A DNA stretch of 64,000 nt from Thioalkalivibrio sp. ALJ7 (GTDB lineage: Bacteria; Pseudomonadota; Gammaproteobacteria; Ectothiorhodospirales; Ectothiorhodospiraceae), in the NCBI RefSeq assembly GCF_000376865.1, contig NZ_AQXQ01000009.1, positions 62,001 through 126,000 of the forward strand. The letters run 5' to 3'. The position numbers were made by a program, and so were the translations under genes. The number at the start of each line of letters is the position of its first letter. Position 1 is the stretch's first letter. Shown here piece by piece: positions 1,290 through 42,746 of this stretch. Below the pieces are notes generated by a model. The model saw only the letters and a program-made list of their open reading frames with translations, did no database searches and was not told the DNA's origin.

Positions 1290-1577
1290 TTAGGGAGACG
1301 CTGATTTAATCGCGCGTCCGCGTTGGTGCCCCCTGTTTTCCGAGACAAGGCGCGTCGTGTAGCGGGTAGTGGTTCTACCCGCAAGCGGCGCAACGCAGGA
1401 TCGGGGAACAGGGGACACCAACCCCACAAGCTATTGAAGGCAGGGGCTCGGCCGCTTTTGCTCGGGAACGGCGTTGCGGTTCCCTTGTGCAGAGTGACTG
1501 CACGGCAGTCACCGCGCCTTGTTCCCACGCAAAAGCGACTCGAGCGCGGACGCGCGATTAAATCAGCGTCTCCTTAG
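1290..1577 (+). mobile_element. MITE-like structured element, copy 1 (with TTAG target duplication)
   Basis: A 280-bp non-coding element (1294-1573) is flanked by TTAG on both sides (1290-1293 and 1574-1577). Its 29-bp terminal inverted repeats are perfect, beginning GGAGACGCTGATTTAATC. Inside are a sub-terminal stem (TTGGTG.CCCCTGTT at 1323-1337 with AACAGGGG.CACCAA at 1407-1421), a hairpin GCGGGTAG/CTACCCGC (1362-1369 with 1375-1382), and on the right a CGCTTTTGC/GCAAAAGCG stem enclosing GTGACTG/CAGTCAC. A 4-bp YTAR-type duplication is characteristic of the IS5 group of the IS5 family, so mobilisation by such a transposase is inferred. No transposase is present. An 84-codon frame inside is not considered a gene. 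Confidence 0.85.
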
Positions 1578-10897: not shown

Positions 10898-11171
10898 CTA
10901 GGGAAACACTGATCAATGTACACGCTCGTGTTGGTACCCCAGGTTTTTCGAGACCAGGCGCGGTGCGCAGCCGGTAGTGGTTCTACCGGCAAGGGCCGCA
11001 ACGCAGGATCGGGGAACCTGGGATGCCAACCCCGAAGGGGCTCGGCCACTTTTGCCTGCGCACGGCGTTGCGGTTCCCTTGTGCAGAATGACTGCACGGC
11101 AGTCACCGCGCCTTGTTCGCACGCAAAAGCGACTCGAGCGCGAGCGTGTGCATTGATCAGTGTTTCCCTAG
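10898..11171 (+). mobile_element. MITE-like structured element, copy 2 (with CTAG target duplication)
   Basis: A 266-bp element (10902-11167) is flanked by CTAG at 10898-10901 and 11168-11171, and lies in the same orientation as copy 1. The ends begin GGAAACACTGATCAATG and match each other with two differences, both G-T compatible. They differ from copy 1 at several positions, each mirrored at the other end. Inner stems also co-vary: CCCAGGTT/AACCTGGG replaces CCCCTGTT/AACAGGGG, and GCCGGTAG/CTACCGGC (10970-10977 with 10983-10990) replaces GCGGGTAG/CTACCCGC. The central linker is 14 bp shorter than in copy 1. It begins 16 bp after the RND pump stop, including the duplication. Confidence 0.85.
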
Positions 11172-28029: not shown

Positions 28030-28067
28030 TAGTTTCGTCTGCGGGTGCTCGACAATGCCCGCACACC

Positions 28068-28270
28068 GTTCTGGAAGAGATCTGCGATCGCGAGTCGATT
28101 GGCAGACGCCGAAGGCGCAACATCCGCCCGGAATCGCTCAGGCTACAGGACCGGAACGGTGCAGGAGACACACTCTGGAGAGCGGCCGGAAACGGTCCAC
28201 CGAAGGGGGCGGCCGTGCAGCGCAGATGCAGCTGACACGGCGCAAACTCTCAGGTTTCAGGACAGAGGGG
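28068..28270 (+). promoter_or_regulatory. Tandem glycine riboswitch
   Basis: Two successive glycine aptamers. The first (about 28068-28158) contains GTTCTGGAAGAGATC, GCCGAAGGCGCAA and GCTCAGGCTACAGGACCGGA. The second (about 28171-28270) contains CTCTGGAGAGCGG, CCACCGAAGG, GCGCAAACTCTCAGGTT and AGGACAGAGGGG. These are the conserved blocks of the gcvT RNA element. The closing stem of aptamer II (CTCTG with CAGAG) touches the left arm of the terminator that follows, providing a simple on/off switch. By comparison with known examples, glycine binding should allow read-through into gcvT. Confidence 0.93.
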
Positions 28271-28308
28271 CGGCTGGCAGATTCACTCTGCCGGCCGCCC
28301 CTTTTTTT
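28267..28308 (+). terminator. Intrinsic terminator acting as riboswitch expression platform
   Basis: A 15-bp stem GGGGCGGCTGGCAGA/TCTGCCGGCCGCCCC (one G-U pair) with a TTCAC loop is followed by seven T. It overlaps the 3' edge of glycine aptamer II and lies before the gcvT start, so it is a regulated attenuator rather than an operon end. Confidence 0.9.
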
Positions 28309-41332: not shown

Positions 41333-42150
41333 TCGAGGGGTGGCTGGACGATTTCCTGGTGCGCGCCGTGCTGGCGGGGCTAATGGTGGCTGCCGTGGCC
41401 GGGCCGCTGGGTGCGTTCGTGGTCTGGCGGCGCATGGCCTACTTTGGTGACACGATCTCGCATTCCGCCTTACTGGGCGTGGCGCTTGGCTTCCTGCTCG
41501 GGTTGAACCTGAACCTGATGGTCACGCTGGTCTGCGTCTTGATCGCGGTATTGCTGGTGTTCCTTCAGCGGCGCCAGGAGCTGGCCTCGGACACCCTGCT
41601 CGGCATCCTGGCGCATAGCGCTCTGTCGCTAGGGATTGTTGCGGTCACGTTCATCGAGGGTTTGCGGGTCGATCTGATGGCCTATTTGTTCGGGGATATC
41701 CTCGCGGTGGGTACGAACGACCTGTTGGCGATTGCAATCGGTGGAGGCATTGCGCTGGTGATGCTGATGCTGTTGTGGCGTCCCTTGCTCGCGCTGACGG
41801 TTCATGAAGAACTGGCGCGCGTCGAAGGGGTTCCCGTAGTGGCCGTGCGTCTGGGTTTGATGCTCCTGATCGCATTGGTGATTGCGGCAGCGATGCAGGT
41901 GGTGGGGGTGCTGCTGATTACCGCGCTGATGATCATCCCGGCGGCCAGTGCGCGTCGCTTCGCGGCCACCCCCGAGCAGATGGCTGTACTCGCGGCGGTC
42001 CTTGGGATGCTGGCCGTGGGAGCCGGACTATGGGGTTCGTTTGTCTACGACACGCCGACGGGGCCGTCCATCGTGGTGGCCGCCATGCTTGGCTTCATCC
42101 TGATCCACCTGTTGCCCGGCCGCCTCTTCGCCCCGTTTGGAGGACGCTGA
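41329..42150 (+). CDS. znuB: Zinc ABC transporter permease ZnuB
   Basis: 273-aa membrane permease of the metal ABC-3 family with about eight helices. Conserved stretches: GPLGAFVVWRRMAYFGDTISHSALLGVALG at the N-terminal side (seen in parts) and GVLLITALMIIPAASARRFA. ATG 41329 overlaps the znuC stop. Within 50 bp of its stop the compound repeat region starts. Confidence 0.95.
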   Translation: MIEGWLDDFLVRAVLAGLMVAAVAGPLGAFVVWRRMAYFGDTISHSALLGVALGFLLGLNLNLMVTLVCVLIAVLLVFLQRRQELASDTLLGILAHSALSLGIVAVTFIEGLRVDLMAYLFGDILAVGTNDLLAIAIGGGIALVMLMLLWRPLLALTVHEELARVEGVPVVAVRLGLMLLIALVIAAAMQVVGVLLITALMIIPAASARRFAATPEQMAVLAAVLGMLAVGAGLWGSFVYDTPTGPSIVVAAMLGFILIHLLPGRLFAPFGGR

Positions 42151-42153
42151 AAC

Positions 42154-42746
42154 CCTTTATTCACCACGAAGCACACGAAGGCACGAAGAAAAGCTAGGGT
42201 GACGCTGATTGAATCGCACGTCCGCGCTCGAGTCGCTTTTGCGTGCGAACAAGGCGCGGTGACTGCCGTGCAGTCATTCTGCACAAGGGAGCTGCAACGC
42301 CGTTCCCACGCAAGAGCGGCCGAGCCCCTGCTTTCAATGGCTTGTGGGGTTGGTGCCCCCTGTTCCCCGATCCTGCGTTGCGCCGCTTGCGGGTAGAACC
42401 ACTACCCGCTGCACGACGCGCCTTGTCTCGGAAAACAGGGGGCACCAACGCGGACGTGCGATTCAATCAGCGTCTCCCTAGGTCAAGGGCGATTGCACCA
42501 CAGAGGACACAGAGATCACGGAGAAAGATTTTTAGTTATGAACGTCGGCTCTGATCGAAGATTGCTGGCACCTCTGAACCCGAGTTTCTTCAGGACCTAC
42601 AACTGGAATGGCCGCAAGTACGCTAGCAGCGACTTTTTTCAACCCGAAGCCCTTCTCCGTGTCCTCTGTGCCCTCTGTGGTGCAATCGCCCTTAATCTTT
42701 AGCCCTTTCTTCGTGTCTTCGTGCGCTTCGTGGTGAACAAAAAGGG
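42154..42746. repeat. Nested palindrome of short CACGAAG- and CACAGAG-type repeats
   Basis: Outer arms at 42154-42193 (TTCACCACGAAGCACACGAA...) and 42705-42746 (reverse complement) enclose inner arms at 42485-42528 (GCACCACAGAGGACACAGAG...) and 42651-42694 (reverse complement). The central spacer, 42529-42650, is non-coding as far as I can see. MITE copy 3 sits between the left outer and left inner arms. The arms encode TTKHTKTRR- or HHRGHRDHG-type peptides in some frames, which are spurious. Together with the MITE this fills the 611 bp between znuB and folA. Confidence 0.85.
42194..42481 (-). mobile_element. MITE-like structured element, copy 3 (inverted, CTAG target duplication)
   Basis: A 280-bp element (42198-42477) with CTAG at 42194-42197 and 42478-42481. 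It is inverted relative to copies 1 and 2. Terminal repeats match except for one base and carry two changes relative to copy 1 (near GATTGAATCGCAC) that are mirrored at the opposite end. The inner hairpin GCGGGTAG/CTACCCGC is at 42389-42396 with 42402-42409. It starts 47 bp after the znuB stop and interrupts the left arm of a nested palindrome. Confidence 0.87.

Follow-up and report, generated by a model that had tools for sequence, protein, structure and literature searches.

Bacterial MITEs of the IS5 family are short, occur in many copies, have inverted ends in common with an autonomous IS and are bordered by a YTAR-type 4-bp duplication, YTAR being the 4-bp target duplication of IS5. The elements described here resemble them in these respects but differ in their 29-bp arms, whose outer part of about 18 bp the IS shares, in carrying two ends that correspond to one IS end, and in their cloverleaf interior, interchangeable blocks of about 15 bp and GC content of 62%. 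Another structured MITE is the Correia repeat enclosed element of Neisseria, for which part of a review reports in-place inversion (PMC10969869), so that this behaviour of a MITE is already known. The Correia elements belong to another bacterial group and have other ends, and the same part of the review describes them as carrying promoters (PMC10969869), whereas a promoter consensus scan limited to the surroundings of copy 1 of the present family found none. The GTAG REPs are palindromic repeats of the genus Thioalkalivibrio itself and measure 20-40 bp according to a portion of their description (PMC3733652), whereas the MITEs here are 265-341 bp long and have target duplications. In yeast, template switching is described in a section of PMC8604942 as homogenising the arms of inverted repeats and inverting their spacers; the inversions in that section involve a few bases, whereas here an interior of about 220 bp within a mobile element is concerned. 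An excerpt of PMC8794818 also proposes that template switching can generate compensatory changes in hairpins. No description of the Thioalkalivibrio family itself was found among titles and the openings of abstracts, a search in which subscription journals were thinly covered.

The window, that is, the whole stretch of 64,000 nucleotides from Thioalkalivibrio sp. ALJ7 that was analysed, contains three copies of the element at exactly the positions given in a preliminary description of this DNA (Table 1). The arm pairs reported there were also recovered: GCGGGTAG/CTACCCGC is present in copies 1 and 3 and GCCGGTAG/CTACCGGC in copy 2, and a second pair, CCCCTGTT/AACAGGGG, is replaced by CCCAGGTT/AACCTGGG. 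The terminal repeats match within each copy, as had been stated (29 identical nt in copy 1, 31 nt at 97% in copy 2 and 33 nt at 97% in copy 3), and the ends of copy 1 are paired in its predicted fold as well. Additionally, each copy is flanked by a 4-bp direct repeat that the description had not mentioned, and copy 3 lies in the orientation opposite to copies 1 and 2. Taken alone, the stem differences among these three copies mostly represent one difference, between two subfamilies (types I and II). The longest complete ORFs inside copies 1, 2 and 3 encode 45, 69 and 65 aa, and the element apparently carries no genes. The GC contents of the three copies are 62.5, 61.3 and 63.2%, with a mean of 62.1% over 210 elements and 65.6% for the window; the elements are thus GC-rich and slightly below the window, which departs from the base composition that a section of PMC10969869 gives for MITEs.

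Table 1. Positions of the three element copies, their target duplications and their stems in the window.
Feature	Position	Strand	Remark or basis
Target duplication TTAG, left of copy 1	1290..1293		non-palindromic; direct repeat at 1574-1577
Copy 1, type I, 280 bp	1294..1573	-	P2 comes first on the minus strand
Terminal arm P1 of copy 1, 29 nt	1294..1322		partner 1545-1573; first 17 nt equal an IS right end
P4 hairpin of copy 1, tip GCGGGTAG/CTACCCGC	1322..1422	-	copy 3 element numbering carried over
P2 hairpin of copy 1	1446..1545	-	copy 3 element numbering carried over
Terminal arm P1 of copy 1, 29 nt	1545..1573		partner 1294-1322
Target duplication TTAG, right of copy 1	1574..1577		sequence
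Target duplication CTAG, left of copy 2	10898..10901		sequence
Copy 2, type II, 266 bp, short P3 loop	10902..11167	-	first 17 nt of both ends equal an IS left end
Target duplication CTAG, right of copy 2	11168..11171		sequence
Target duplication CTAG, left of copy 3	42194..42197		sequence
Copy 3, type I, 280 bp	42198..42477	+	reference for element numbering
Terminal arm P1 of copy 3 (element 1-29)	42198..42226		partner 42449-42477
P2 hairpin of copy 3 (element 29-128)	42226..42325	+	fold
P3 short hairpin of copy 3 (element 129-151)	42326..42348	+	fold
P4 hairpin of copy 3 (element 152-252)	42349..42449	+	fold
Terminal arm P1 of copy 3 (element 252-280)	42449..42477		partner 42198-42226
Target duplication CTAG, right of copy 3	42478..42481		sequence

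On either strand, the three window copies are predicted to fold into a four-way cloverleaf, in which the 29-nt arms at the two ends pair as P1 and the interior forms P2, P4 and, between them, a short P3. The energy is close to -185 kcal/mol in copies 1 and 3 and to -160 kcal/mol in copy 2. The RNA folds of copy 1 (-184 kcal/mol, z -14.1) and copy 2 (-162.3 kcal/mol, z -11.8) and the DNA fold of copy 3 (-104.3 kcal/mol, z -11.7) were each more stable than all of 200 shuffles. In the predicted fold of a fourth copy, which is longer and carries inserted blocks, P1 and the larger part of P2 persist and P4 is rearranged.

In the source genome (2.71 Mb, 12 contigs), 46 complete copies, each having both ends, were identified, and another 4 are partial. 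The end motif, at up to 2 mismatches, matched 117 times genome-wide and 2 times in the reversed control, which argues against a family produced by chance. Among the 58 genomes searched, the element was present in 16 of 30 Thioalkalivibrio genomes, the source genome included, and in 0 of 28 others. Furthermore, a core-motif scan of named genomes returned at least 106 stretches, and all 80 of the matches listed belong to Thioalkalivibrio. Phage and plasmid collections, in which records very near the source genome may be absent, gave no match to the element. The elements are a MITE family of Thioalkalivibrio.

Elements of the relatives were picked first from the best matches of one query and later by a scan with an exact motif, so the sample leans to similar copies. 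The 4 partial copies of the source genome and 10 incomplete matches were not counted as elements. From the set of 157 elements, one shorter than 260 bp was omitted from the alignment, tree, covariation, module, end, flank and orthologous-site analyses and from the first rare-allele test. Three elements have a wrongly called end (G001_L096_718, G002_L204_89 and G009_L211_121); they were omitted from the pairwise orthologue, module, IS-end, flank and site analyses, two of them also from the first rare-allele test, and were retained in the pair counts, the tree-based null, the G-U/A-C tests, the end-mismatch comparison and the tree change counts.

Element lengths cluster at 266, 280, 295 and 310 bp, with a few near 325 and 341 and an overall range of 265-341 bp, because optional blocks of about 15 bp are present or absent. 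Among the 46 copies of the source genome, all four combinations occurred in 17 of 28 module pairs, which points to recombination between copies; the regular expressions that defined the module states were loose, and some cells remained unassigned. The type of the ends and the type of the P4 base were fully linked in this genome (16 and 26 copies, no hybrid, 4 unassigned). In the multi-genome set, three elements combine type I ends with a type II core.

Evidence of mobility was found at the flanks. Identical 4-bp flanks border 92 of 153 elements (shuffled mean 40.6, maximum 55), and among the 55 elements with a non-palindromic left 4-mer there were 11 direct repeats against 3 inverted matches; CTAG and TTAA are the commonest flank words. 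The site of copy 1 is empty in four relatives, in which the flanks are joined within 8 bases, and in two more within 19 bases. The target word TTAG was not seen at these empty copy-1 sites, and no clear empty site for copy 3 was found in the relatives. In one relative (L170 1001-1578), two elements lie 4 bp apart, and in another (L110 1002-2515) a MITE and an IS lie 4 bp apart with one CTAG common to both; both arrangements look as though the target duplication of one copy had served as the insertion site of the other.

The outer ~18 bp of the MITE are common to an IS of 1169-1220 bp, of which eight copies were found in five relatives. The putative transposase of one of these (321 aa) scored 319 bits against the IS5 model NF033581 (cut-off 140) and 99.6 bits against PF01609, and by these model scores it is an IS5-family DDE transposase. 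An IS with such matching ends would be what moves the MITE. The source genome gave 0 matches to PF01609 and 0 to the IS transposase; its copies are therefore stranded or moved by something not found. Other candidates were rejected. PF13586 matched in 2 of 30 genomes, and neither locus carries the MITE end motif when fewer than 2 mismatches are allowed; a segment of about 1 kb between MITE-type ends (L049), considered as an autonomous copy, holds a thioredoxin gene and not a transposase; and similarity between the MITE interior and the IS was not regarded as homology, since the dozen or so matches listed, among 1012 at E up to 1, measured 12-17 nt at E of at least 0.25.

The two ends of each IS differ from one another at 4-7 of 18 positions. 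Both ends of copy 1 show 0 differences in 17 to an IS right end, both ends of copy 2 show 0 differences in 17 to an IS left end, and those of copy 3 differ from a right end at 1-2 positions, so that each such copy carries two copies of one IS end. On positions 13-18 only, 153 elements were assigned as 106 right/right, 16 left/left and 1 left/right, with 30 tied at one end at least; we attribute the ties to a single degenerate IS right end with a resemblance to type II. The left/left claim is weaker than the right/right claim because it rests on the 17-nt comparison of copy 2.

Orthologous sites, defined as elements with both flanks homologous in register, were occupied in at least two genomes in 17 cases, and at 4 of the 17 the element is inverted between genomes (4 of 12 sites in the first element set, counted by hand). 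At three of the four flipped sites, an inverted pair is 98.0-98.9% identical and of mutual rank 1-2 of 151. At the fourth, the ranks are 4 and 5, the flanks are 78% and 84% identical, and a rare hybrid make-up is common to both partners. Such near-identity of inverted partners argues for one insertion that was inverted rather than two insertions. The 8 inverted pairs include three at ranks 1-2, one at 4 and 5, and four that are less alike (up to 120 of 151) because modules changed too; at one site, the module differences do not fit the grouping by orientation, so this site changed more than once. Indels of at least 14 bp separate copies at 10 of the 17 sites. As a unique flank within tens of bases fixes the orientation, draft assemblies should, on this argument, give it correctly, and inner modules may be mis-assembled in drafts.

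The two ends of an element also carry matched rare alleles, defined as those at a frequency of at most 8% within a subfamily. Among the 194 of 210 elements with the same clear type at both ends, 45 rare alleles were present at both ends of one element and 124 at one end only; re-dealing the right ends within a type predicted 2.2 both-end alleles on average and never more than 8 in 500 repeats, and shifted positions gave 0-4. The first rare-allele test, on 153 elements, counted 23 both-end alleles for P1 (1.5 expected; 0-1 in the slid control), 3 for P2 (0.2; 0-2), 2 for P3 (0.3; 0-1) and 27 for P4 (2.4; 0-6). End pairs are perfect over 29 nt in 60 of the 194 elements, with a mean mismatch of 1.25. 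At positions 21 and 23 of the same elements, a P2-side G faces a P4-side A in 45 and 36 cases, and the reverse occurs in 4 and 4. Orthologous sites allowed a direct comparison of 21 pairs (13 of 15 in the same orientation and 8 of 8 inverted); in one of them a matched double change had occurred in place (pair 14; flanks 98% and 97%), and the remaining end differences were unmatched.

The best explanation of this pattern, to which we give a probability of about one in two, is a non-autonomous MITE moved by an IS5-family element, with blocks of about 15 bp swapped between copies and terminal arms exchanging sequence at the DNA level. An IS5-family IS that shares the outer ~18 bp and the YTAR-type 4-bp duplication would mobilise the MITE. 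The ends probably exchange sequence by conversion or crossover between the arms, which, as mutual inverted repeats, could swap sequence through crossover or template-switch conversion. A crossover between the arms would flip the element in place, and conversion would copy a mutation at one end to the other, so that "compensated" changes would arise without selection on RNA. Arm exchange would account for the flips, the matched rare alleles, the two copies of one IS end and the mostly strand-neutral deviations from pairing. We infer both the molecular step of the exchange and a single process behind flips and matched ends. The exchange would be restricted to the outer ~18-20 bp, a limit that fits the directional bias at positions 21 and 23, the uncorrected P2 and the single in-place double change; conversion of whole arms would predict neither this bias nor the concentration of matched alleles in positions 1-18. 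Homogenisation is incomplete, since the ends differ on average at 1.25 of 29 positions, which speaks against arm conversion. Some of the matching between ends could be due to small subfamilies or to selection acting on transposition, and small subfamilies outside the sample could have spread some of the matched pairs.

The preliminary description had named conversion of the arms against each other as one possible cause of changes on both strands. For the terminal arms this idea gained ground (45 matched rare alleles against 2.2 expected; flips at 4 of 17 sites), and P2, with 4 compensated against 238 one-sided changes, is not corrected in this way. Mapped on the tree of the full alignment, compensated two-sided changes numbered 56 in P1, 4 in P2, 0 in P3 and 23 in P4, and one-sided changes 171, 238, 59 and 155, respectively; P2 is almost without compensated changes, so correction of hairpins is not general. 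On a tree from unpaired columns only, the compensated counts were 279, 4, 4 and 85, and we take the higher values to reflect ends and cores moving apart by recombination rather than more events.

Compensatory changes are commonly taken as proof of functional RNA. The covariation check that had been proposed for the family was run with a purpose-written, R-scape-like script (not R-scape itself), using 60 null alignments in which substitutions were re-dealt along a tree that is itself blurred by recombination. Beyond phylogeny, only 1 of 38,226 column pairs was significant, pair 14-267, which shows all four Watson-Crick types. The next-ranked pairs mix stem pairs with columns diagnostic of type I or II, whether paired or not. 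Most of the "compensation" in the stems corresponds to one old split into two subfamilies together with block exchange between copies, and part of the P4 signal comes from the three elements that join a type II core to type I ends.

These results are compatible with an explanation by subfamily history alone, in which the old split between types I and II and later small subfamilies were spread by transposition, with no present exchange between arms. The tree-based null leaves one pair, many next-ranked pairs involve diagnostic columns, every assigned copy of the source genome agrees in the types of its ends and its P4 base, and the end mismatch within an element (1.76 in an earlier element set) is not far under that between elements of the same type (2.73). 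This history is nevertheless unlikely to suffice: it does not account for the excess of both-end rare alleles or for the orthologous site at which both ends changed in place, and the matched ends of each subfamily would still need a cause.

The placement of the 45 matched rare alleles, with 41 in positions 1-18, the part common to the IS, and 4 in positions 19-29 (Fisher p 8e-6), is what would be expected if elements with a matching outer ~18 bp were better synapsed by the transposase and matched ends were over-represented in consequence. As a matter of argument, such selection during transposition does not explain what advantage a rare base would have over the common one when each is present at both ends, and the two ends of the IS are themselves unequal. 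Matching extends to positions 24 and 25 (in type I, both-end alleles number 11 and 13, one-end alleles 3 and 4), and the transposase of this IS was not found in the source genome. We therefore regard selection for synapsis as a doubtful, rather improbable cause of the matched ends.

Deviations from Watson-Crick pairing showed no clear strand preference by pair and a lean to G-U in other counts. Counted by pair, G-U and A-C were balanced at 38 against 34 (p 0.72); by event they numbered 212 against 178 (p 0.09) and, on the second tree, 227 against 190 (p 0.08), and by cells 129 against 90 and 124 against 91. P1 leaned to G-U (68 against 45, p 0.04) because of positions 21 and 23, without which the counts are 43 and 40. 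A selected single-stranded RNA should favour G-U on one strand throughout, so the balance by pair gives no clear RNA signature. Selection for a structured RNA from the element, such as a processing site, terminator or regulatory RNA, is very improbable: the fold is very stable (z -12 to -14), non-coding copies lie between convergent genes in 12 of 24 cases against 16 of 53 non-coding random points (crude gene calling, 34 of the 46 own copies), and G-U leads by event, by cell and in P1, but the balance per pair, the loss of the P1 lean without positions 21 and 23, the about equal folding of both strands, the two orientations at orthologous sites, the one-sided decay of P2 and an Rfam scan of the window without a match over the elements stand against it. 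The suggestion that the paired structure is maintained as RNA or single-stranded DNA thus found no clear support in the covariation test, in the G-U/A-C counts or in P2.

Exchange between the terminal arms, the reading preferred here, can be taken one step further, tentatively and at less than even odds, to a self-inverting and self-homogenising MITE in which the unequal IS ends became right/right or left/left by repeated copying and compensation arose without RNA selection. If true, such an element would caution users of covariation methods by a natural example and would preserve the traces of arm conversion in many copies. Under the preferred reading, this is a family, represented by 46 complete copies in the source genome, in which compensated changes are best explained by DNA-level arm exchange, with the flips as visible by-products. 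The family would offer a natural data set for separating RNA selection from arm conversion and a tractable route to how MITEs gain symmetrical ends.

Other features were observed in the window and in the source genome. A dispersed repeat of the CACGAAGGCACGAAG type lies to the left of copy 3 (window ~42142-42190) and has dozens of matches across the genus, and a similar CACAGAGGACACAGAG stretch was seen by eye to the right of copy 3 (42490-42530). Tandem glycine riboswitch aptamers of ordinary type were found on the + strand at window 28062-28275 (61.9 and 47.7 bits). Solitary single ends with no partner in reach occur at three loci of the source genome (L055, L058 and L060). In the segment L049 (source genome C9:201144-202744), the stretch 305-1297 is bounded by MITE-type ends at a distance of about 1 kb and holds a gene for thioredoxin (PF00085, 96.8 bits; Thioredoxin 2 zinc ribbon, 52.5 bits); the gene may have been captured between the ends, or these may be a pair of solo ends. 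Finally, fused element ends with almost no interior form bare palindromes at L051 305-331, L054 492-515 and L056 488-515.
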